Assembly (NCBI GenBank): GCA_013151215.1
Contig: JAADIS010000118.1
Coordinates: forward strand, 1-64,000
Direction of reading: 5' to 3'
Length of the DNA stretch: 64,000 nucleotides
From: Chlorobiota bacterium
GTDB taxonomy: Bacteria > Bacteroidota > Bacteroidia > Bacteroidales > F082
Made by a program: the position numbers and the translations under genes. The notes below the pieces were generated by a model. The model searched no databases and was not told the DNA's origin. It saw nothing but the letters and a program-made list of their open reading frames with translations. Below, in pieces: positions 20,048-42,557 of the stretch; the first letter of the stretch is position 1, and every line of letters starts with the position of its first letter.

Positions 20048-20686
20048 TCAGCATCCGCCTTCAGCCACGGAGGTTTTCTTTTTACGTGCGATTTTAATCG
20101 ATGATTTTTTAGCCGAGGATCCAGTTTTAGCAATATTTGAACTGCTTGCCATTTCCTTATAATCAAATTTCGGGGCACCCCTTAAAAGGGCATCGTCGCC
20201 ATAGGAATCGGCCAGTTTGCCTTCCCATTGTTTATAATAATCGTATCCGCCAAGCAGTAATTTAACATTGTCGAAGCCCAATTGGCGCAAAATCATCCAT
20301 GGACCATTAGCCTCAAGTTGGTCATTTGCATAAACAACAACACAGATATTATTAGCCTTCAACTCATCAAGCCTATCAATGTTTTCTTCATTCAATAATT
20401 CAACGGAAGAAATATTTTCGGAGCCCGGGATATTTCCTTTGGCAAATTCGAAGGTATTCCTCAAGTCAACCAGCAAAACCGTATCTACCTTACCATCAAT
20501 AACATCGGCAATTTCATAAGGATAAACGCATCCTTGATCCCATTCGATCATCTCTAAGGTCTTACTCACATCTTGTTCAAACTTAAGTCGCGGCGACTTT
20601 AGCGTAATAAGACCTATAATTATAACCGCCGTGAATATGAGCAGCGTTATTGCAGTTCTTTTGGGGTTTAATTCATGTACGTGCAT
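20048..20686 (-). CDS. Rhodanese-like membrane-anchored protein, C-terminus -SVAEGGC; canonical active-site Cys absent
   Basis: N-terminal TM; LVDLRNTFEFAKGNIPGSENI; active-site loop reads VVVYANDQLEAN; ends ARKKKTSVAEGGC. Confidence 0.85.
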   Translation of the reverse strand: MHVHELNPKRTAITLLIFTAVIIIGLITLKSPRLKFEQDVSKTLEMIEWDQGCVYPYEIADVIDGKVDTVLLVDLRNTFEFAKGNIPGSENISSVELLNEENIDRLDELKANNICVVVYANDQLEANGPWMILRQLGFDNVKLLLGGYDYYKQWEGKLADSYGDDALLRGAPKFDYKEMASSSNIAKTGSSAKKSSIKIARKKKTSVAEGGC

Positions 20687-20727
20687 TTCTTTAAATTTTC
20701 TTGATTTACAAATATTACATCATAAAA

Positions 20728-21345
20728 CTAACATCCGCCTTCGGCTACCGATTGCTTTTTCTTGCGTGCTATGCTAATAGTAGTTTTTTTGCTATCGGAA
20801 GAAGATTCGATATTGTTGCCGGTAAAATATATAGAGGCTCCTTTTCTAATACTATAAAGTTCAAATTCTTCGCTCGATGCTGTTTGTTCAGGTTCCACAG
20901 GTTTTATAATTGTTGACATCCAACAATTCAAGCCGCCTTTCATCACATAAACATTACCGAAGCCAAGTCGTTTTGCAATAACCCAAGCTTGATCGGCCTT
21001 AATATCATCGTTCGAAAAGAATACCGTATTCATCCCATCGATACCCAGATAATCCTGATAACTATCCGAAATAAGACTGTCGAGAGGTATGTTAATAGCA
21101 TTCTGGAGAGTAAACTCGTCATATTCGTCGCTTGCCCTAACATCTATTAGTTCGAGCGAAGGATCATTTTCTATTATCATTTTCGCAACGGCATCGGTTG
21201 AAACAAATCGCGTGGGCTGAACGATGCTCCACATCAGATCTTCCGGATTACTATATTTCGTATTATCCCTGTCGGGAAGGAAAAACAAACCTCCTGAGAG
21301 AATAAGCATTAACAGCGTCAAATAAATATAATTCTTGTTCATCAC
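20728..21345 (-). CDS. Rhodanese-like membrane-anchored protein, C-terminus -SVAEGGC; canonical active-site Cys absent
   Basis: N-terminal TM; LIDVRASDEYDEFTLQNAINIPLDSL; active-site loop reads VFFSNDDIKAD; ends ARKKKQSVAEGGC. Confidence 0.85.
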   Translation of the reverse strand: MMNKNYIYLTLLMLILSGGLFFLPDRDNTKYSNPEDLMWSIVQPTRFVSTDAVAKMIIENDPSLELIDVRASDEYDEFTLQNAINIPLDSLISDSYQDYLGIDGMNTVFFSNDDIKADQAWVIAKRLGFGNVYVMKGGLNCWMSTIIKPVEPEQTASSEEFELYSIRKGASIYFTGNNIESSSDSKKTTISIARKKKQSVAEGGC

Positions 21346-21950
21346 TAATCGAATTTATAAGGATTAATATTTTTTCTCACTCTTTTTTCGATTATCCATG
21401 TGCCCCAAAAGGCGGCTAATCCAACAACAACCAAAATAAAGGTAAACACTTCGTTGGAGACTCCCAACATTTCACTGATAGTAATATTCCCCAGATTATC
21501 GCTATAATAAAAATCGCTGAAAAAAGGAAATGCTTCCGAGAACATGAAAATACCCAGGAAAAGTCCGCCGGTAAAAACCATTGCATCGATTTTACCTATT
21601 GCTATGGCAGTATAACTTGTGCCGGGGCAAAAGCCGCCCAAGACAAAACCAAAGCCCATGATAATTGAGCCGAGTATCATCGGTGTTAAATATGTTGGAA
21701 GGATATATAACATATCCATTGCTATCCAACCCATATAATCGAAATAAAGAAGCCCGATCATTGCAACCAAAACGGCTGTAAAGAACACTCTGAGCACTAC
21801 GAAGTTATATCCGTAAAACGCTCCCGTGATATTTCGGGAGGAGGAAAATCCTGATGCTTCCAGGATAAAGCCGAAGGCGATACCTAAAAGAAGGGCGATG
21901 ACGAAATCCCAATCGCCTGTTATAATACCTTGAGGAATAAGTGGTCCCAT
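21345..21950 (-). CDS. YeeE/YedE-family sulfur-compound transporter half
   Basis: Multi-TM, motif GFVLGGFCPGTSYTA. Confidence 0.88.
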   Translation of the reverse strand: MGPLIPQGIITGDWDFVIALLLGIAFGFILEASGFSSSRNITGAFYGYNFVVLRVFFTAVLVAMIGLLYFDYMGWIAMDMLYILPTYLTPMILGSIIMGFGFVLGGFCPGTSYTAIAIGKIDAMVFTGGLFLGIFMFSEAFPFFSDFYYSDNLGNITISEMLGVSNEVFTFILVVVGLAAFWGTWIIEKRVRKNINPYKFD

Positions 21951-21967
21951 AATATTTTATATTTTAA

Positions 21968-22504
21968 TTATATCCATAATTTTCTGAAAAAATAAGCAAC
22001 TGCATAGCCGGTTCCAAAAAGAAGCATCATAACCAAGAAGCCTCCGAATGAGAAAGATGCCGTTCCGCTAAGTGCGGCACCGCTGGAACATCCTCGTCCG
22101 AACTGGCTGCCGACACCGAATAAGATGCCACCTATTCCTGCTGCCCAGAGGCGTGTTTTTGATGATATCTTAGGTGAATGCTCAATCCGCAACTTCTTTA
22201 ATCTGCCGAAGAGCGCTCCTGAAATAAGGCCTCCGATAAATATACCCAATGATTCAAACACCAACCAATTGAACATCGGTGAGTGGTTGTCGGTAAGAAA
22301 TCTGCTATAAAAGGTACTTTCTTCGGCATGGGAAGGTGCTACCTTATCCACTGTTGTAACAACAGCGCTTTTCACTGCTCCGCTGGCACCCAGGCCACGG
22401 CCGGTGATATACATAGTCAACAGCAATAGCAAGCCGAGCAATACACCGCCAAAATATGGATTTATGTATTTTGGTCTTTTTATAGATTCTGTATGTGTAT
22501 TCAT
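21968..22504 (-). CDS. YeeE/YedE-family sulfur-compound transporter half
   Basis: Multi-TM, motif GSQFGRGCSSGAALSG. Confidence 0.88.
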   Translation of the reverse strand: MNTHTESIKRPKYINPYFGGVLLGLLLLLTMYITGRGLGASGAVKSAVVTTVDKVAPSHAEESTFYSRFLTDNHSPMFNWLVFESLGIFIGGLISGALFGRLKKLRIEHSPKISSKTRLWAAGIGGILFGVGSQFGRGCSSGAALSGTASFSFGGFLVMMLLFGTGYAVAYFFRKLWI

Positions 22505-22525: not shown

Positions 22526-23467
22526 TTAATATAAATATCTGGTTATCTGCCCTGCTTCCACCATTATAAAACGAAACATAAGACCACCAATTAAAATTAA
22601 GAGAGAAGGTATCCACATCGGGATTTTATATCCGAACAATTCCAAAGTTTCCAGAAATGCCGGGACTATAAGTCCCAAGATCATCACAAATACCCAAAAT
22701 GTTACTGTAAACTCACCACCCAGGAATAAATGCGCAGCCTCTACCTGAACCTGATTTGCAGCCAAGAAGCCCATGAATAGATGGACTATCAAAAACAACT
22801 CCACTCCGATAAGTGCGATGTCTATCTTGCTGAGCACCGAACGCTCATAATGGCTTTTCGACATCCATATGATTGCCGCAAGGCCAGTTGACATACCAGA
22901 AACCAGGAACAAAGGCCCTAATATCGAAGTGTTCCACAGTGGTCGGGCATTAAAAGCCGACAATAAAATACCTGTATAAACCCCAAGTATTATTGCCAAA
23001 CCCATCGCCAGCCAGGCAATATGTTTTCGATATTTTATCACCAAGGATTCAAATGATTCGAAGATCGGTAACCGCCATTTCCACCCAGGGACAACTTCTT
23101 TAATATAACTAGCAACCCAAAAGAACGACAAAGGCGTTATTATCATGAGTGTCCACGCACCCCACGACATTGGTGACTCCATTCTTATTGTTGTATAAAG
23201 CCTCCAGAAAAACAATTGATGTTTTAAATCCAGAAAAAGTGCAAACAAGCCAACAACTAATGCAACGGGAACCAAGAACGGGGCCCATTTAACAGTGGTT
23301 TCCATTTCTTTTTCTTTTCCCATAACAAGGAATAGTCCTGCAAAAAACATTATCCCGGCCGCAAGACCGCCCAAAAACAAATAAAGAGGTATTTCCCAAT
23401 GCCATATATTTAAAAATGGGTCGATATTTGGAATATTTCTTCCGCTAACAAATAATTCTTCTTTCAT
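22526..23467 (-). CDS. NrfD/PsrC-like polytopic membrane subunit
   Basis: Multi-TM protein following a 4Fe-4S subunit gene; N-term WHWEIPLYLFLGGLAAG typical of NrfD. Confidence 0.9.
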   Translation of the reverse strand: MKEELFVSGRNIPNIDPFLNIWHWEIPLYLFLGGLAAGIMFFAGLFLVMGKEKEMETTVKWAPFLVPVALVVGLFALFLDLKHQLFFWRLYTTIRMESPMSWGAWTLMIITPLSFFWVASYIKEVVPGWKWRLPIFESFESLVIKYRKHIAWLAMGLAIILGVYTGILLSAFNARPLWNTSILGPLFLVSGMSTGLAAIIWMSKSHYERSVLSKIDIALIGVELFLIVHLFMGFLAANQVQVEAAHLFLGGEFTVTFWVFVMILGLIVPAFLETLELFGYKIPMWIPSLLILIGGLMFRFIMVEAGQITRYLY

Positions 23468-23479
23468 GTTCTTTTAGTG

Positions 23480-24013
23480 TTAAGTAAGAAAATATAATTG
23501 AGGTTTAGTTCCTGCCTCAGGGGCAAGCACCTTCCAACTCCTGTTTTTAAGAGCCTTTGAAACATCGCTGTTCGGATCTTCCAAATCCCCAAAATAAAGA
23601 CAATTAGTAGGGCAAACTGCAACGCAAGCTGTAGTTTGACCTTTTGCCAACCTATGGTCGCAAAAGGTACATTTATCAACGTAACCTTCAGGATGTGAAT
23701 ATCTTGCATCGTAAGGACAGGATTGGATACATGCACCGCAGCCAATACATTCGTCATGTGTAACCTTAACGATACCTCCTTCGATAATATGGCTGGCACC
23801 TGTTGGGCAACAACGGACGCAAGGTGAATTATCGCAATGATTACATCTTTCCGATCTTAACTCTACTTCAACGTTAGGATAACTTCCCGAAACATTTTCA
23901 ACTATCCAATCGCGGCAAAATCCTATTGGAACATTATTTTCTGTTTGACAGGCAACCACACAGTCGCCACATCCCACACACTTTTTAGTGTCGATAGCCA
24001 TTGCGTATCTCAT
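23480..24013 (-). CDS. 4Fe-4S ferredoxin-type electron transfer subunit (PsrB/PhsB-like)
   Basis: Four Cys clusters: CVGCGDCVVAC, CNHCDNSPCVRCCP, CIGCGACIQSCPYDAR, CTFCDHR; overlaps the preceding ORF by 4 nt. Confidence 0.93.
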   Translation of the reverse strand: MRYAMAIDTKKCVGCGDCVVACQTENNVPIGFCRDWIVENVSGSYPNVEVELRSERCNHCDNSPCVRCCPTGASHIIEGGIVKVTHDECIGCGACIQSCPYDARYSHPEGYVDKCTFCDHRLAKGQTTACVAVCPTNCLYFGDLEDPNSDVSKALKNRSWKVLAPEAGTKPQLYFLT

Positions 24014-26256
24014 GATTCAACCTCCTCTATTGGTTTTTCTTTAATAAAAGTTACAAAATTTCCTCTCATTCCCGTACCGCCCATCATAGGGTCGATCATT
24101 ACATTTGTTATCAATTCCGAATCGCTGGCACCATGACCATAAGTACGTGTAAGTTTTTTATTGGTATGTCCGAAGCCATGCACCATATAAACGGAGTCCC
24201 AGCGTATCCTTTCGGTTACCCTAACTTTGACAGGGAATGTAGAAACAATACCGTCCTGATTTTGAAGCCAGACTTTCTGACCGTTTTTGATATCCCATAT
24301 ATCTGCCACCTTGGGGTTCACCCAAACGGAATTCGAATCCATTAAATCCCAAAGGTTGGGATTATTGGATGTTCTTGAGAATGTATGCATGGGAGCCCGA
24401 CCGTAAATAAGGCGATAAAAACCTTCTTCGGGTTGGGGGTGCTGAGTGAATTTAGGCATAGGGTCGAAACCGAGATCCTCGAACTCAAGCGAATACAGTT
24501 CAATTTTGCCTGTTGAGGTGTTGAACTCGTAATCCTCGCCATCCTGCAAATAAAGCCCGCCGGATTTTCTCGGGAATTTCTTGACCCCGAGTTTTTTCAT
24601 TTCATCCAAAGACGAACCGAGTTTATTAAGTTGCCATTCAAGGACTTCCTCGATGTCCTCATAGTTATAATATTCACTAAGTCCTAGGCGCTCACCTAAT
24701 TGTTTTGCGATCCACCAGGATGGTTTAGTTTCATATTTAGGCTTAAGAGCCGGGGCACGTAATGCAATACTTGGCTCGCGATGCGGAGCAGAACGGATAT
24801 AATCATATCTTTCAAGATAAGTACATTCGGGAAGGACAACATCGGCATAAGCCGTGATATCCATCGGCATGGTATCGACAACTGCTATAAAATCGACCGA
24901 TTGAGCCGCCATTTGGAAGAGTTCTTTATCCGGAATTGTCAACGGAAGGTTGGTTCCGGCAACTATCCAACTCTTTATTTGGTGTTTATAGTTAAACTCG
25001 GGTATCGATGCCCTTAAAAGCTCGGTAGTGATGCCCATTGCCGATAAAGGATATTTGCCATCCAGATTATCTTTCCAGTCCCATTTGTGATGGGGATATT
25101 CGGGTTGTGGGAATTTTGGCACTTTTACGGCTTCCTTGAAATAAAAACCTCCGCGGCGTCCCCAGGAACCTAGCAATGCATTCAAGATAGCAATTGCCCT
25201 CTCGCGTTGACTGTCGTCGCCGTACCAAACAACATGACGACCGGGATGAACAATTACCGAAGGTGAGGCAGCAGCCATCTCCCTTGCGGTTTTCCTGATC
25301 AAGTCAGGGTCGAGTGTAGTGATTCCATAGGCCCATTCAGGAGTCATATTTTTCACATGTTCCTTAAGTTGTTCGAAACCCATTGCATATTTTTCGATAT
25401 ATTCCTTATCATATAGGTTTTCATAAATTAGAACATGAATCCATGATAATAGCAATGCAATATCTGTTGAAGGTTTTATGGGCAACCAATATTTCGATTT
25501 GCTGGCAGCAGTGCTTAAACGGGGGTCAACAGTTATAATTGTCGCACCGCGGTCGATGGCTGTTGACATTTCCTGCACTTGGCCGTTATGCATGTTCTCC
25601 CCAATATGGGAACCAATCAACACGAGGCATTTAGTATCTCTTATGTCAGTAGGTTCGGGCGAGCCAATCCAGCTGCCGAAGGTTGCACCAAAGCCAACTT
25701 CGCGAGGTCCTCTGCATTGGGCCCATGCAGGCTCTCCCTCGTTTCCTGAGCCATAAGCATGAAACAAATGCTTGAAATGACTTCCGGGAGCACCATGATT
25801 GAAGAGCGCAAATGCCTCAGGGCCATGCTTTTCCCTTACTTCGGCCATTTTTGATGCAACTAAATCCAATGCCTCGTCCCATGAGGCTTTGCGAAATCGT
25901 TGCTTTCCATTAACAGTCTCCCTTATAAGAGGTGTTTTTAATCGATCTTCATCATTGTACATTCCAACACCGCCTGTACCCCTCGGACAAAGCCGGCCGT
26001 TGCAATGAGGATCGTTTTCATTTCCGATAATCTTGCGAATATTGCCTTTTTTATCGACATATGTCCATCCTGCACATTTCCAAAAGCAAACTTCGCAATA
26101 GGTTGAATGAGCTGTCATTTCTTCTTCGCTAACAGGCCCTTGGTCGTTTAAAGCATAAAGGCTATTTACCCCTTTCCAACTTAACGAACTAAGTCCTAAG
26201 GTAGCAGCTCCTGCCCCGGCAGCGGAGATTTTTATAAAATCCCTCCTAGTTTTCAT
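24010..26256 (-). CDS. TAT-exported molybdopterin oxidoreductase catalytic subunit (polysulfide/thiosulfate reductase-like family)
   Basis: RRDFIKISAAGAGAATLGLS TAT signal; CEVCFWKC...CPRG 4Fe-4S site; molybdopterin-binding motifs; probable Mo-ligand Cys in AQCRGPREVGF. Confidence 0.9.
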   Translation of the reverse strand: MKTRRDFIKISAAGAGAATLGLSSLSWKGVNSLYALNDQGPVSEEEMTAHSTYCEVCFWKCAGWTYVDKKGNIRKIIGNENDPHCNGRLCPRGTGGVGMYNDEDRLKTPLIRETVNGKQRFRKASWDEALDLVASKMAEVREKHGPEAFALFNHGAPGSHFKHLFHAYGSGNEGEPAWAQCRGPREVGFGATFGSWIGSPEPTDIRDTKCLVLIGSHIGENMHNGQVQEMSTAIDRGATIITVDPRLSTAASKSKYWLPIKPSTDIALLLSWIHVLIYENLYDKEYIEKYAMGFEQLKEHVKNMTPEWAYGITTLDPDLIRKTAREMAAASPSVIVHPGRHVVWYGDDSQRERAIAILNALLGSWGRRGGFYFKEAVKVPKFPQPEYPHHKWDWKDNLDGKYPLSAMGITTELLRASIPEFNYKHQIKSWIVAGTNLPLTIPDKELFQMAAQSVDFIAVVDTMPMDITAYADVVLPECTYLERYDYIRSAPHREPSIALRAPALKPKYETKPSWWIAKQLGERLGLSEYYNYEDIEEVLEWQLNKLGSSLDEMKKLGVKKFPRKSGGLYLQDGEDYEFNTSTGKIELYSLEFEDLGFDPMPKFTQHPQPEEGFYRLIYGRAPMHTFSRTSNNPNLWDLMDSNSVWVNPKVADIWDIKNGQKVWLQNQDGIVSTFPVKVRVTERIRWDSVYMVHGFGHTNKKLTRTYGHGASDSELITNVMIDPMMGGTGMRGNFVTFIKEKPIEEVES

Positions 26257-27253: not shown

Positions 27254-27931
27254 ATGAAAGATTGTATCGATTGTGCGATAAGGTCGAGGGCAGTTCAAAC
27301 CCTAACACCTGAAGAATTTAATATTCACAGGGAAAACTGTGCTGAACTTGAATTAGAGGCTGGGGAGAGTATTTTCAAGGAAGGCCAATTATCATCACAT
27401 ATTGCTTACTTAAAATCAGGACTGGCAAAGATTCACAAAAAAGGCATAAAGGGAACCGATCAAATACTTAAAATTGTTAAACCCTCACATTATATTGGTT
27501 TACAAACCATTTTACTAAACAAGGTTCATCAATACTCATCATCAGTTATTGAAAAATCAGTTGTCTGTTATGTTGACATACATTCATTTAAAGATTTGAT
27601 AACGCGAAACGCTAATTTTGCCAATGAGCTCATATTGCATATGTGCGAAGATGAAATGTCATATTTCAACAGGTTTGTTAATGTTCACCAAAAGCAAATA
27701 AACGGAAGGTTGGCTGATTCCATTTTGTTTTTCTTTGATGAAATAGCTCATTCGAATAAATTTGTGATACCTTTATCAAGAGCGGATATTGCAGCATTAA
27801 TTTGCTCCACACGTGAAAGCGTGATAAGATCCTTAAAAGATCTAATCGATATGGGAGCCATTAAAGTTCAGGGCAAGCATTTTGAGGTTATTAACAAGGA
27901 ACTACTGATATCGATCAGCAATAAAGGCTGA
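27254..27931 (+). CDS. Crp/Fnr-family transcriptional regulator (paralog 1)
   Basis: Cyclic nucleotide-binding-like domain, HTH_Crp SRADIAALICSTRESVIRSLKDL; N-terminal CIDC. Confidence 0.9.
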   Translation: MKDCIDCAIRSRAVQTLTPEEFNIHRENCAELELEAGESIFKEGQLSSHIAYLKSGLAKIHKKGIKGTDQILKIVKPSHYIGLQTILLNKVHQYSSSVIEKSVVCYVDIHSFKDLITRNANFANELILHMCEDEMSYFNRFVNVHQKQINGRLADSILFFFDEIAHSNKFVIPLSRADIAALICSTRESVIRSLKDLIDMGAIKVQGKHFEVINKELLISISNKG

Positions 27932-28134: not shown

Positions 28135-30027
28135 ATGATAATTAAAGGACTAATTGATGATTTATTAAAAAATTACAACGTTGATGTTGTAGAGAAACAT
28201 CTTGTTTATGTATTTATAGAGAACAATAAATTAAATATTCAAAACAGTCCAATTATTGTAGAATTGCTAAATGATTTTAGTCTTCAGACTGAAGTGTATT
28301 TTAAATTATCATCTCATAATATTGTAGATTTAAAAATATTAGAAAACTACTTGGAACTTCTTATCCCGAAAAATGATAGAAAAGTAAATGGAGCGTTTTT
28401 TACTCCTACTTATGTAGTTGACTATATAGTCAGAGAAGTTTCTCCTAAAAATAATGATAAATGTTTAGACCCAAGTTGTGGTTGTGGCGCTTTTTTAATT
28501 GGGTTGGTAGATTATTACAAAAAAACATTTAGTAAAAGTATTAAGGAAATAATTCAAGAAAATATTTTCGGGTCTGATATTTTGGATTATAATTTAAAGC
28601 GTTCAAAAATTATTTTATCACTTTTAGGATTATTAAATAATGAAGTAATTGAAGAAACAGATTTTAATCTTTATCATCAAGATAGTTTAAAGGCGAATTG
28701 GAAAAACACCTTTGAAATAGTTGTAGGCAATCCACCTTATGTAAAATATCAAGATTTAAGCGATGAAAACAGATTATCCTTAATTAACAATTGGAAAACT
28801 ATTGAAAATGGAACTTTTAATTTATATTTTAACTTATATTTTGCTTTTTTTGAATTAGGGCATAAACTTTTGTCACCTAATGGGAAATTAGGATATATTA
28901 CTCCAAACAATTACTTTACTTCTTTAGCAGGATTATCGTTACGTCAATACTTTCTGCAAACCAAGTGTTTAACGAGAATTGTTGATTTTCGACACAAAAA
29001 AGTGTTTGATGCTCAAACATATACTGCAATTACTTTTGCAAATAATAAAACCAACGATTCTATATTGTTTGACAAGATCGGAGATAATCAAACCTGCAAC
29101 GATTTTTTAAATTCAGCAAATGGGTCAGCAAATTATTTGAAAAACTTAAATGTAAAAAAGTGGCGATTATTAAAAACTACTGAACAGGAGAATATTAAAA
29201 TAATTGAGAATATTGGGACCCCAATAAAACAATTATTCAATATTGCTGTTGGAATTGCAACTTTAAAAGATGAAGTATTTTTTGTGGATTCTGGCAATGA
29301 AAAGAATGGTTATTTTACAAAGTCAACTGATAATGGAGTCTTTTTAATTGAAAGGGAAATTACAAAACCTGTTTATAAAATATCACAATTCAAAAACCAA
29401 AATGATATTGAAAGCAATACGTTAAGAATTATTACTCCGTATCACGCTGATTCTAAAACAGCAACCCCAATTTCAGAGAATGAATTTAAATTAAAATATC
29501 CTTTGTGCTTCGAGTACTTACTTTCAGAAAGAGAAAAATTAGAAAGTAGAGACAAAGGGAAACGTAATTATTCTCCCTTTTACGTTTGGGGGAGAACACA
29601 AGGTATTACACGTTTTGGAAGAAAATTATTAAATCCTACATTTAGTAAGCACCCAAGATTCTTATTCGTTCCGGAAGAAGATGCTTATTACACTAATGGT
29701 TATGGAATTTATTTTGACAGAGACCATACAAATAAAGCATCTTTATTTGAAGATTTTACACACGAGATGTCAAAGGAAGAAAATATACTGATTGTTCAAA
29801 AAATCTTGAATTCAATAATAATGGATTATTATATTAGCATTACAAGTGTTTCGATTCAAGGTGGATTTCCTTGCTATCAAAAAAACTTCATTGAAAAATT
29901 CACAATACCAAATTTTTCAAAAGAAGAAATTGAGTTATTGAAAAATATGTCTGATAAAACTGAAATTGATGAGTTTCTCATTGATAAATATCAACTTAAT
30001 ATTCCTGTTCCAAACCTTTTATTATAA
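28135..30027 (+). CDS. Type II N6-adenine DNA methyltransferase
   Basis: GAFFTPTYVVDYIV, DPSCGCGAFLIG and NPPYVKYQD motifs; C-terminal target-recognition region. Confidence 0.92.
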   Translation: MIIKGLIDDLLKNYNVDVVEKHLVYVFIENNKLNIQNSPIIVELLNDFSLQTEVYFKLSSHNIVDLKILENYLELLIPKNDRKVNGAFFTPTYVVDYIVREVSPKNNDKCLDPSCGCGAFLIGLVDYYKKTFSKSIKEIIQENIFGSDILDYNLKRSKIILSLLGLLNNEVIEETDFNLYHQDSLKANWKNTFEIVVGNPPYVKYQDLSDENRLSLINNWKTIENGTFNLYFNLYFAFFELGHKLLSPNGKLGYITPNNYFTSLAGLSLRQYFLQTKCLTRIVDFRHKKVFDAQTYTAITFANNKTNDSILFDKIGDNQTCNDFLNSANGSANYLKNLNVKKWRLLKTTEQENIKIIENIGTPIKQLFNIAVGIATLKDEVFFVDSGNEKNGYFTKSTDNGVFLIEREITKPVYKISQFKNQNDIESNTLRIITPYHADSKTATPISENEFKLKYPLCFEYLLSEREKLESRDKGKRNYSPFYVWGRTQGITRFGRKLLNPTFSKHPRFLFVPEEDAYYTNGYGIYFDRDHTNKASLFEDFTHEMSKEENILIVQKILNSIIMDYYISITSVSIQGGFPCYQKNFIEKFTIPNFSKEEIELLKNMSDKTEIDEFLIDKYQLNIPVPNLLL

Positions 30028-39433: not shown

Positions 39434-39835
39434 TTGCTCAGCGATAAAGAACATAACCGACGATTTTTTCTGAAATCTGCCTTAGCAGTCGTTGCACTTG
39501 CTTTTATTGGCCTTTGGGACAAAATGCTTATCAGGCATAAACAAATTAATAAAGTAAACACCTTCACTTTTCCTCTCAACTTCGACAAAAAAATCAGTTT
39601 TGCCGAAAACTATATAATAATAAGGAGCAAGGGCAACTTTAAAGTATTATCATCGCGCTGCACTCATTTAGGCTGCCGGATAAATGAAGCCATCAATGAT
39701 CAACTCATATGCCCTTGCCATGGCTCAAGCTACGACTTAAACGGTAATGCCACTAAAGGCCCGGCAACAAGGCCTTTGGCAACAAAGAAATTCATTATCG
39801 ATGAAAAAACTAAAACAATAAGCATTAAAAGCTGA
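39434..39835 (+). CDS. Rieske [2Fe-2S] protein
   Basis: CTHLGCRIN and CPCHGSSYDLNG; N-terminal NRRFFLKSA twin-Arg-like signal; TTG start. Confidence 0.92.
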   Translation: MLSDKEHNRRFFLKSALAVVALAFIGLWDKMLIRHKQINKVNTFTFPLNFDKKISFAENYIIIRSKGNFKVLSSRCTHLGCRINEAINDQLICPCHGSSYDLNGNATKGPATRPLATKKFIIDEKTKTISIKS

Positions 39836-39857
39836 TTTACAACATTCAGGAAATATA

Positions 39858-42557
39858 TTGAAAAAAATAAAAGCCATATTAGCTAATAATACTTACGGTC
39901 AGATATCGCTGGCACTTTTGCTAATATGCCTTCTTTCGGGTGTTTTTCTCGCGCTTCCCTACGATGTCGGGAATCCATATGGATCAATAAAAACCATACT
40001 CATATTAAATCCATTTGCTTCATTGATAAGGAATATCCATTTTTGGAGCGCACAGTTGTTTTTGGTGTTCACCTTGATTCACGTATGGGATTATTTTTCA
40101 TTAAAAGAGAAATTTACAGCCAAAGCCGGAATATGGCTTCGTTTGAGTATAGGTGTATTGATAATTTTTCTGGCAATGCTCACGGGCTTCCTTTTAAAGG
40201 CCGATGCCGACAGCCGGCAAGCATTCAGGATACTGGAATCCCTCACCGCTGAGGTTCCTTTTATTGGAAATTTATTGTCGAAATCATTTCTCGGGGCCGA
40301 AGGCGACCTGCAACTTATTTATATTCACCACATTGCAACCCTAAGCATTTTCATCGCCATCATAAGTTTTGAACACTCAAGGAAGACATGGCCTATAATG
40401 TCAAGCTTTATATATACGACAGTAATTGTTAGCCTTATCTCGTATTTTTTTACAGCACCTCTTCACGACGGAATTAATCCAAGCGTAAAGGGCCCCTGGT
40501 ATTTTGTGGGTTTTCAAGAAATATTGCATTGGTTAAGTTCTACTTCCATATCGCTACTGTTGATAGCATTGTTTGTTTTTCTGATTTATATTTATCCCTT
40601 TGGAGGGAAAAAACTTGGCTTCATAAGCAAAAGAAGTTTGCTATTCTTAAGCATTGTTTACTTTATCCTCACCTTTAGCGGGATGTTTTTCAGAGGAGAG
40701 AACTGGAAATGGACCTGGCCGTGGGAAAGCGGATATTCATATTCCGTTTTATCGTCCTTTAAAAGCTGGCCTGTCGATTTCGATGACAAAAACATCAATT
40801 TCGATAATATTAACAACGAACAACATAAAGAAGGCTGCTTAATCTGCCATGCTGAAATGCAGGGGTTTAGCTCTTCGCATTTACCGCAAGCCCTCGGTTG
40901 TTTCTCATGCCACGATGGCAATCCTTATTCATTAAACAAAAAAGAAGCCCACTCCGGAATGGAATTGATTCCGGGCAACTTCTCGAATTCCGGCAGGAGT
41001 TGCGGAACAACCGAATGCCATCCTGATATAAACAGACGCAGGAAGTCCAGTTTAATGTCCAACCTCAGCGGGATGATAAGCGTGGATCGTTATGTTTTTA
41101 ACGAAAACCACAGTCCTGACATGCTAACTTCCATCGATTATTTAAGCAATAGTCCGGCCGACGAACATTTAAAAAACCTATGTGTTGTTTGTCATCTTGA
41201 CAATGACAAGACCGAAACCGGCCCGATAAACGAAAAAAGCCGAGGAGGAGGTTGCTTGGCCTGCCACTTAAATTATGACGAACTTTCGGCCACCGCATTA
41301 TATGCCCATAATTTCAATAAATCAGACAGCACTTATTTAAAATATCATCCTTCGATAAGCATACAGGTAAGCAATCAGCATTGTTTTGGATGCCATAGCC
41401 GTTCCGGCAGGATATCAACAAATTACGAAGGCTGGCACGAAACAAATATCAAGGCAGAGGAGATGCCTTCCGGCAAGAACTACAGATTAGTTGAAGGCAG
41501 CCGGGTTTTCCGGTTTCAGCAGGCCGATGTCCATCATAATTTGGGAATATCCTGTATAGATTGTCATAATTCCTACGAATTGATGGGCGACGGCGATATT
41601 CATGCCCATCAGGAAAACCAAAGGACAATAAACTGTAGCGATTGTCATTTTAGTGGCAAAGCAAACACCGTTGAAGCCGATATGTTGGATGAGGAATCAG
41701 CAAAAATTGCTTTTATGCGCTTTGGCAGCAATACAGCCAAAATTTTTCTTGCAACTGCCAAAAGAAATATACCTTTGATAAATACCGAGCTAAAAAATGA
41801 CACTGCCTATTTCTATACAAAGAACAACAAAAAGGAATTTGTTCTTAAAAAACCAGGGGAGACATGTACAAAGGGAAATGTCCACGATAAAGTGAGCTGC
41901 TCGGCCTGCCATTCCGCCTGGGCTCCCAGCTGTATTGGGTGCCACAACAAATACGATGAAGGCGAAGCGGGCTTCGATATGCAGAAAAACGTAGAGAAAA
42001 AAGGTTCATGGGTTGAATATATCGGTGTTTTCGATGCACACGCACCTGCACTTGGCATAAGAAAAACAGAGGAAAAGGAAGAAATAGTTCCTGTTGTGCC
42101 GGGCATGGTTTTAACAATTGATATTGGCAGTTATACAAAACAACAGCAGGATTCAACAATATTTCAACGTTTGTTCGCCCCGGCAGCCCCACACACAACG
42201 TCAAAGAACGGAAGAGGCTGTAAATCATGCCATTATAACCCTGTTGCTTTGGGATATGGTCAGGGAGTATTTCGTATCGAGAACAAAAAACTGGTTTTCG
42301 AGCCAAAATATGAGGACAACATAAACGACGGTTTGCCGGAAGATGCGTGGATTGGGTTTTTAAGCGAGGTCAAAAAAAACAAATTCGCAACTCGTTCTAA
42401 CCTATTTCCGTTTAGTGTGGAAGAACAGAAAAAGATACTCAGGGTCGGGCTTTGCCTCACCTGCCACGACGACGATTCGATAATAATGCGACAAGGCTTA
42501 GCGGATTTTAAAAGCGTGGTGAAAAAACAAAGTTCCGCATGTTTTAATATTTTTTAA
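39858..42557 (+). CDS. Cytochrome b fused to a multiheme c-type cytochrome region (11 CXXCH + 1 CX4CH)
   Basis: N-terminal cytochrome b-like helices (HFWSAQLFLVFTLIHVWDYF, GFLLKADADSRQAF, HHIATLSIFIAIISFEHSR, KGPWYFVGFQEILHW); then CLICH, CFSCH, CGTTECH, CVVCH, CLACH, CFGCH, CIDCH, CSDCH, CSACH, CIGCH, CKSCH, CLTCH. Confidence 0.9.
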   Translation: MKKIKAILANNTYGQISLALLLICLLSGVFLALPYDVGNPYGSIKTILILNPFASLIRNIHFWSAQLFLVFTLIHVWDYFSLKEKFTAKAGIWLRLSIGVLIIFLAMLTGFLLKADADSRQAFRILESLTAEVPFIGNLLSKSFLGAEGDLQLIYIHHIATLSIFIAIISFEHSRKTWPIMSSFIYTTVIVSLISYFFTAPLHDGINPSVKGPWYFVGFQEILHWLSSTSISLLLIALFVFLIYIYPFGGKKLGFISKRSLLFLSIVYFILTFSGMFFRGENWKWTWPWESGYSYSVLSSFKSWPVDFDDKNINFDNINNEQHKEGCLICHAEMQGFSSSHLPQALGCFSCHDGNPYSLNKKEAHSGMELIPGNFSNSGRSCGTTECHPDINRRRKSSLMSNLSGMISVDRYVFNENHSPDMLTSIDYLSNSPADEHLKNLCVVCHLDNDKTETGPINEKSRGGGCLACHLNYDELSATALYAHNFNKSDSTYLKYHPSISIQVSNQHCFGCHSRSGRISTNYEGWHETNIKAEEMPSGKNYRLVEGSRVFRFQQADVHHNLGISCIDCHNSYELMGDGDIHAHQENQRTINCSDCHFSGKANTVEADMLDEESAKIAFMRFGSNTAKIFLATAKRNIPLINTELKNDTAYFYTKNNKKEFVLKKPGETCTKGNVHDKVSCSACHSAWAPSCIGCHNKYDEGEAGFDMQKNVEKKGSWVEYIGVFDAHAPALGIRKTEEKEEIVPVVPGMVLTIDIGSYTKQQQDSTIFQRLFAPAAPHTTSKNGRGCKSCHYNPVALGYGQGVFRIENKKLVFEPKYEDNINDGLPEDAWIGFLSEVKKNKFATRSNLFPFSVEEQKKILRVGLCLTCHDDDSIIMRQGLADFKSVVKKQSSACFNIF

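Follow-up and report, generated by a model that had tools for sequence, protein, structure and literature searches.

Rhodanese-fold protein pairs with a C-terminal cysteine as putative extracytoplasmic sulfur carriers linked to a split YeeE channel

Rhodanese sulfurtransferases use a catalytic cysteine in their active-site loop, and the locus described here raises the question of what two adjacent rhodanese-fold proteins, here referred to as twin A and twin B, may do when this residue is replaced and a cysteine is found at the very end of the polypeptide instead. The window, i.e. the whole stretch of 64,000 nucleotides that was analysed, further comprises genes for a putative sulfur reductase, a split sulfur channel and additional exported rhodaneses (Table 1).

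Table 1. Positions of the twin genes and of related features in the window.
Feature	Position	Strand	Characteristics
Twin B, TM-anchored rhodanese-fold protein, 212 aa	20048..20686	-	Ala120 in place of the catalytic Cys; ends in RKKKTSVAEGGC
Twin B Lys-rich GGC tail, last 12 residues	20051..20086	-	Near-identical to twin A tail
Twin B codon at the catalytic-Cys column, Ala120	20327..20329	-	Alignments
Twin A, TM-anchored rhodanese-fold protein, 204 aa	20728..21342	-	Ser110 in place of the catalytic Cys; ends in RKKKQSVAEGGC
Twin A Lys-rich GGC tail, last 12 residues	20731..20766	-	Near-identical to twin B tail
Twin A codon at the catalytic-Cys column, Ser110	21013..21015	-	Alignments
YeeE/YedE-type sulfur channel, N-terminal half, PmpB-like	21345..21950	-	Pfam Sulf_transp 1.4e-15, profile 3-160 of 310; GGFCPG Cys
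YeeE/YedE-type sulfur channel, C-terminal half, PmpA-like	21968..22504	-	Sulf_transp 5.3e-20, profile 171-308 of 310; GRGCSSG Cys
PsrC/NrfD membrane subunit	22526..23467	-	Pfam NrfD 8.8e-41
PsrB-like iron-sulfur subunit	23480..24013	-	CxxC-rich ORF between psrA and psrC; syntenic homologues
PsrA/PhsA molybdopterin subunit, twin-arginine-type signal	24010..26256	-	NCBIfam PhsA 476 bits, below the model's cut-off of 694
Lipoprotein rhodanese, YCKKGKRS, C-terminal GGC	31178..31696	-	Pfam 5.4e-23; adjoins cytochrome b561 and octaheme cytochrome
Cytochrome b561	31701-32483	-	Ni_hydr_CYTB 5.5e-28; part of the 31701..34166 pair
Octaheme tetrathionate-reductase-family cytochrome	32577-34166	-	TIGR04315 583 bits, cut-off 375
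Two-domain exported rhodanese, YCRTSVRA in domain 2, C-terminal GGC	35397..36296	-	Pfam 2.8e-31, two stretches

Loop and tail cysteines of the twins and their relatives

Both twins match Pfam Rhodanese (PF00581) with the same E-value of 3.4e-13, and the best Foldseek matches of both structural models in the PDB are rhodaneses. Similarly, phmmer searches of the PDB with the twins returned generic rhodaneses only, and no NCBIfam model scored above its cut-off for either protein. For twin A, which in the ORF list begins with a GTG at 21345, one codon ahead of 21342, AF2 predicted a rhodanese core (mean pLDDT 75.7) with residues 177-204 below 50; the model of twin B is weaker (mean pLDDT 58.7), with a core of about 75-87 and residues 156-212 below 50. 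These low values suggest that the tails are flexible. The active-site loop reads CVVVYANDQLEANGPW in twin B and NTVFFSNDDIKADQAW in twin A, and alignments confirmed what a preliminary description of this DNA had proposed, namely that alanine and serine, respectively, occupy the column of the catalytic cysteine, leaving both proteins without the loop cysteine of a rhodanese sulfurtransferase. A search for an alternative cysteine in the loop revealed none that is conserved, the AF2 models consisting of a rhodanese core and a low-confidence tail, and the twins have presumably lost enzymatic activity. Further cysteines (C53 and C115 in twin B, C140 in twin A) are not conserved either. Both proteins terminate in RKKKxSVAEGGC, and as 14 of the last 18 residues are identical, compared to 28% identity overall in the pairwise alignment, the tail is the most conserved part of the twins.

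The relatives of the twins bear out the claim that the terminal cysteine is the only conserved thiol. Among 128 short homologues from the order of the window, a cysteine aligns with Cys212 of twin B in 126, the next best cysteine column being occupied in 16, and the loop cysteine is absent in 121 (Ser in 71, Gly in 29, Ala in 13, others in the remainder). Homologues with the canonical cysteine and no GGC, which would have spoken against the proposed relocation, amount to two of the 128, and each of these still possesses a tail cysteine (KGSCG; DENCPDLN). In a set of 171 proteins comprising the short homologues of the order, fusion proteins and phylum-wide members, the loop cysteine is missing from 163 and present in 8. 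A Gly-Cys tail occurs in 166 of the 171, the ends being GGC in 150 and of another x-G-C type in 16; deviant tails are few, with three members having another cysteine near the end (e.g. ECPDLN) and two having no tail cysteine at all. Given this pattern, the retention of the tail cysteine and the near-invariant residues D74, R76, G146 and G147 (twin B numbering, family alignments), the loss of the loop cysteine is old and stable and not a sign of decay. Eight of 131 order-level members keep the loop cysteine, and some paralogues of twin B have other loop cysteines, e.g. CGACGPW, so that some paralogues may still be catalytic. The family is widespread: a twin profile (E <= 1e-15) found matches in 110 of 295 genomes of the order of the window and a broader profile in 56 of 396 genomes of a phylum sample, which corresponds to about 37% of the sampled order and 14% of the sampled phylum.

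Two deviations from the common tail were observed within the family. Second paralogues at L105:4564-5247, L133:1023-1637 and L136:953-1576 end in FDE(N/E/D)CPDLN instead of GGC, which still places a thiol near the tip, and their neighbours are twin A proteins with ordinary GGCG tails. At L049:9569-10201, a twin B homologue is halted by a TGA before the tail region, the sole member of this kind seen; selenocysteine was rejected as an explanation since the frame runs on as unrelated sequence with no GGC tail, and the gene is either degraded or affected by a sequence error.

GGC ends are not a general trend of the genome, as the GGC-stop pattern with TGG allowed as last codon gave 44 matches, compared to 58 in a reversed control. 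The genome (3.7 Mb) has 33 true GGC-stop sites, of which only 4 end well-supported long ORFs, and since all four encode exported rhodaneses of the cluster in the window, GGC at rhodanese ends is not due to chance. Another GGC-ending open frame, at least 108 aa long, extends to a contig edge and is presumably a CarB fragment broken at the contig end; two more, of 68 and 84 aa, are unsupported as genes. Rhodaneses without GGC are also encoded in this genome, i.e. a multi-domain protein on C12, an MnmH-like protein on C88 and a two-domain lipoprotein rhodanese at 37508-38497 of the window. In this genome, GGC thus marks a subset of exported rhodaneses, and nothing else with this end was seen. The rhodanese at 37508-38497 has a catalytic-type cysteine in both domains, and its homologues in relatives often end with the GGC tail of their operon.

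Membrane side and operon context

In the TM-anchored members of the family, the mean charge is +1.6 before the hydrophobic segment and +0.3 after it, a positive-inside signal that is clear on average and ambiguous for single proteins, twin B included. Together with the signal anchors and the lipoprotein paralogues that carry the same tails, this suggests that the twins are located on the extracytoplasmic side.

Upstream of the twins, genes for a molybdopterin subunit, an iron-sulfur subunit and an NrfD subunit follow each other in the order of PsrABC/PhsABC, and two Sulf_transp half-domains (PF04143), each with its channel cysteine, correspond to a split YeeE/PmpAB. The closest solved structure to the PsrA/PhsA subunit is 2vpw, deposited as thiosulfate reductase (639 bits). 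The PmpA-like half matches S. thermophila YeeE (6leo, 2.9e-05), and a phmmer search of the PDB with the PmpB half gave no match. Among 108 homologues, the channel motifs GG.CPG and G.GC are found in 107 and 80, respectively. Split YeeE halves have been named PmpB and PmpA and were proposed to form a heterodimer with equivalents of Cys91 and Cys293 (PMC11582611), and for YedE1E2, which is of the PmpAB type, import of zero-valent sulfur was described for which both cysteines are essential (PMC10812762).

The gene order psrABC / yeeE-C / yeeE-N / twinA (/ twinB), all in one direction, recurs in relatives and across the phylum, where the operons usually encode a single K-rich tail rhodanese ending in EGC. 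Operons of a second type encode an octaheme tetrathionate-reductase-family cytochrome together with a cytochrome b561 where the others have psrABC, and in them the N-terminal (PmpB) half of YeeE is fused to a GGC rhodanese. In total, 22 such fusions were identified among the fetched loci, and a hydrophobic segment is kept between the two parts in all six examined. The genes at 31701..34166 of the window encode this pair of cytochromes, which stands in for PsrABC as reductase in the second-type operons of relatives. As had been described, the neighbouring lipoprotein rhodanese and the two-domain exported rhodanese retain the loops YCKKGKRS and YCRTSVRA, respectively; both also end in GGC, and both are possible sulfur donors to the twins. 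Domain 1 of the two-domain protein has an aspartate (VVYDGG) at the position of the catalytic cysteine, which is present in domain 2 only.

Several additional observations concern the surroundings of these genes. In one operon fragment (L147, G589:C4), PsrC is directly followed by two tail rhodaneses without YeeE halves in between; thus, the channel may not be obligatory and tail rhodaneses may work without YeeE. Elsewhere in the genome of the window, and without link to the twins, a full-length YeeE (G000:C50:15692-16588) and a weak TusA-like match below the cut-off (G000:C19:2403-2597) are encoded. At 39434-42557 of the window, a Rieske protein and a cytochrome b fused to a multihaem part are located, and one or both of their homologues adjoin the psrABC operon in eight loci (L048, L049, L052, L053, L172, L175, L177 and L178), suggesting a common electron chain. 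A DNA-methyltransferase-like gene (NPPY motif) and a converging 277-aa gene at 28135-30824, possibly a restriction-modification pair, sit between a Crp-type regulator (27254-27931) and the lipoprotein rhodanese. As homologues of the latter two genes are adjacent in a close relative (L039: 180-698 and 773-1450), the pair looks like an insertion.

Operon-specific matching of the tails

A comparison of twin A and twin B within and between operons revealed that the tails match in an operon-specific fashion. In a set of 24 non-redundant operons, the five residues that precede GGC agree by 75% within an operon and by 27% between operons, and the values for eight residues are 77% and 41%; the bodies of the paralogues, which are about 25% identical, show 24.9% within and 24.7% between. 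For 38 operons, the agreement over the last five residues is 0.674 within and 0.216 between, and in permutation tests on both the 24 and the 38 operons, none of 20,000 permutations reached the observed value. The effect persists when Lys/Arg matches are not counted (0.345 versus 0.088, 38 operons) and is nearly gone in the upstream linker (residues -30 to -19; 0.132 versus 0.101). In eight operons of the second type, the values are 0.40 within and 0.21 between (10 of 20,000 permutations). Third paralogues with lipoprotein signals share the tail of their own operon (L057, L058, L128 and L131), e.g. EEEGGC in L057 and KKSVQGGCS in L058, and PmpB fusions elsewhere in an operon match as well. Also the charge of the tails, counted over 15 residues, differs between operon types, with a mean of +4.0 in PsrABC operons and +0.5 in octaheme operons (p = 2.5e-10, uncorrected for shared ancestry). 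As the tails match within and not between operons while the bodies do not match, the simplest reading would be that all tails of one operon dock in a single partner that drifts over time.

Matching tails might, however, also originate from gene conversion between neighbouring paralogues instead of co-evolution with a partner, an explanation that would fit the tandem arrangement of the genes and the finding that 8 of 38 operons, as against 2 of 1406 cross pairs, have tails identical over their last eight residues, but that we regard as quite unlikely. Tail codons differ about as often as body codons: at identical residues, synonymous codons are the same in 98 and different in 86 cases in the tail, and in 430 and 514 cases in the body (Fisher p = 0.06). 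These counts argue against a recent conversion tract, and the bodies show no excess of matches; moreover, the matching extends to the third paralogues and PmpB fusions located elsewhere in the operon. Recent gene conversion is thus not favoured as the cause of tail matching, and an older conversion followed by selection may have contributed.

A matching tail does not by itself point to sulfur transfer. The tail cysteine could be structural or anchoring, forming a GGC-GGC disulfide between twin A and twin B (and third paralogues) or serving as a site of modification or attachment, as would agree with the frequent occurrence of paralogues in twos or threes with matching tails and with the sterically free position of the terminal residue. 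Such a role is unlikely, however, as several operons encode a single tail rhodanese (L055, L060, L061 and L172-L178), which renders a partner tail dispensable, the twins and the lipoproteins are anchored anyway, by TM segment and lipid, respectively, and all operons examined are sulfur-redox operons. Operon-specific matching would equally be expected of any tag read by a dedicated partner, and the tail might be such a tag, recognised during assembly or export, in which case its cysteine would bind a metal or haem and the rhodanese domain would only scaffold a PsrABC/YeeE complex. We consider this rather improbable, since a lone cysteine without a conserved His or Cys partner makes a poor metal site, and since the neighbouring reductases are of two unrelated kinds and yet the split YeeE is present nearly always, which points to sulfur handling. 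The Gly-Gly motif near the C-terminus, finally, is reminiscent of precursors that are cut behind Gly-Gly so that the new C-terminal GG can undergo thiocarboxylate chemistry of the ThiS/MoaD type. This is highly improbable: the cysteine is the most constant residue, with EGC, DGC, GSC and ECPDLN tails losing a glycine and keeping the cysteine, Pfam identifies Rhodanese only and no ThiS/MoaD-type domain, and the twins appear to be extracytoplasmic, where, to our knowledge, an ATP-dependent adenylating enzyme would not be expected.

Proposed role and comparison with known systems

The absence of the loop cysteine and the presence of a tail cysteine in the homologues support the proposal that the twins are carrier or binding proteins and not classical sulfurtransferases. 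The cysteine relocation noted in the preliminary description is correct and far wider than first described, since it extends across the phylum and includes the operon, the PmpB fusion and tail matching. We consider it fairly probable that the twins are membrane-anchored extracytoplasmic 'swinging arm' carriers of sulfane sulfur, whose tails dock on a shared co-evolving partner, the channel and/or the reductase. The sequence-based evidence consists of the loss of the loop cysteine, the conserved tail cysteine, the operon context, the fusion to the PmpB half and the operon-specific tail matching; from these we infer the sulfur chemistry, the identity of the docking partner and the direction of flow. 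In this model, the reactive thiol would have left the active-site loop and would now sit at the end of a flexible C-terminal arm that is rich in lysine and terminates in GGC. As the pocket cysteine is gone, this arm would have to be loaded in trans with sulfane sulfur, as a persulfide or as a thiosulfonate from thiosulfate, with either the reductase or an exported rhodanese that has kept its cysteine (31178-31696; 35397-36296) as a plausible donor. Once loaded, the arm would swing into a docking site that the twins share. This site would lie on a product of their own operon, the PsrABC reductase and/or the sulfur channel formed by the split, PmpAB-type YeeE, and the sulfur would there be reduced to sulfide or imported. 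Since the split YeeE recurs next to reductases of two unrelated kinds, and since its N-terminal half is found fused to the rhodanese, the channel is most likely where the sulfur is delivered, and the reductase would supply or consume it; docking may occur at PsrA, at the channel or at both, the genomic data being compatible with each.

More tentatively, it might be hypothesized that these phylum-wide pseudo-rhodanese carriers give zero-valent sulfur from the GGC arm directly to the split YeeE (PmpAB), sometimes within one polypeptide, and that the terminal residues represent an operon-specific address co-evolving with the common docking site of the carriers. Such a delivery would parallel that by YeeD, a cytoplasmic carrier whose cysteine acts as the 'fourth cysteine' of YeeE (PMC11073785), and the transfer from the SoxY cysteine into a YeeE-like channel that has been proposed for SoxT (PMC11582611). 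The presentation of sulfur to YeeE/SoxT-type channels from outside the cell has been described as poorly understood (PMC11582611), and the twins are natural candidates for the missing outside carrier. The PmpB-rhodanese fusions offer a ready single-chain test object, and exchanging the operon-specific tails could reveal the docking partner. The evolutionary route would be simple: the rhodanese fold was kept, the catalytic cysteine dropped and the thiol placed on an arm. A literature search that mainly covered openly accessible journal papers found no description of this gene combination or of rhodanese carriers with a C-terminal cysteine.

Several known systems share single features with the twins. 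Sud of Wolinella is a periplasmic rhodanese-fold polysulfide-sulfur transferase that gives sulfur to polysulfide reductase; it resembles the twins in fold and in their proposed sulfur transfer, but uses the active-site-loop cysteine that the twins lack. DsrC, a cytoplasmic sulfur carrier, similarly exposes cysteine near the tip of a flexible C-terminal arm, but differs in fold, compartment and the use of two cysteines, which form a trisulfide with DsrAB. Rhodanese domains without the sulfurtransferase cysteine are also found in eukaryotes, where that of TBC1D23 reportedly serves binding in a trafficking role; we know of no tail thiol in domains of this type. Of the channel halves of the window, the N-terminal one is the counterpart of PmpB and the C-terminal one that of PmpA, and both have the conserved cysteine; in contrast to the described PmpAB/YedE1E2 pairs, which are mostly proteobacterial and linked to PDO (PMC11582611, PMC10812762), they are tied to a reductase and a tail rhodanese and occur in PmpB-rhodanese fusions. 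YeeD/TsuB, the TusA-type partner of YeeE/TsuA, is likewise a small sulfur-binding protein that is sometimes fused to YeeE, and it adds a cysteine to the Cys relay of the channel (PMC11073785). However, YeeD is cytoplasmic, with a TusA fold and CPxP, whereas the twins are predicted to be extracytoplasmic and have a rhodanese fold and GGC, with no TusA match in Pfam and no CPxP in their sequences; their operon contains no TusA gene, and the only TusA-like match of the genome is the one below the cut-off. A further likeness is to SoxY of SoxYZ, an extracytoplasmic protein of a sulfur pathway with a Gly-flanked cysteine on a mobile C-terminal arm as its sole key thiol, for which the sulfur-binding role of the GGCGG cysteine is established (PMC6067878). 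The low pLDDT of the twin tails is compatible with such a swinging arm. In contrast to SoxY, the twins have a rhodanese fold, with Pfam Rhodanese as the only domain and YeeE instead of SoxZ as neighbour, are anchored by membrane segment or lipid, and possess a Lys-rich arm usually ending at the cysteine, i.e. GGC or xGC followed by no more than two residues and never GGCGG in the tails listed. Their partners are PsrABC or the octaheme cytochrome together with the split YeeE, and no sox genes were seen in these operons. The best explanation is that the twins are neither SoxY nor classical rhodaneses and that their arm works like the GGCGG arm of SoxY on a rhodanese fold. The recurrence of this design across the phylum beside sulfur reductases and the split channel suggests an extracytoplasmic sulfur-carrying arm of a little-known type.
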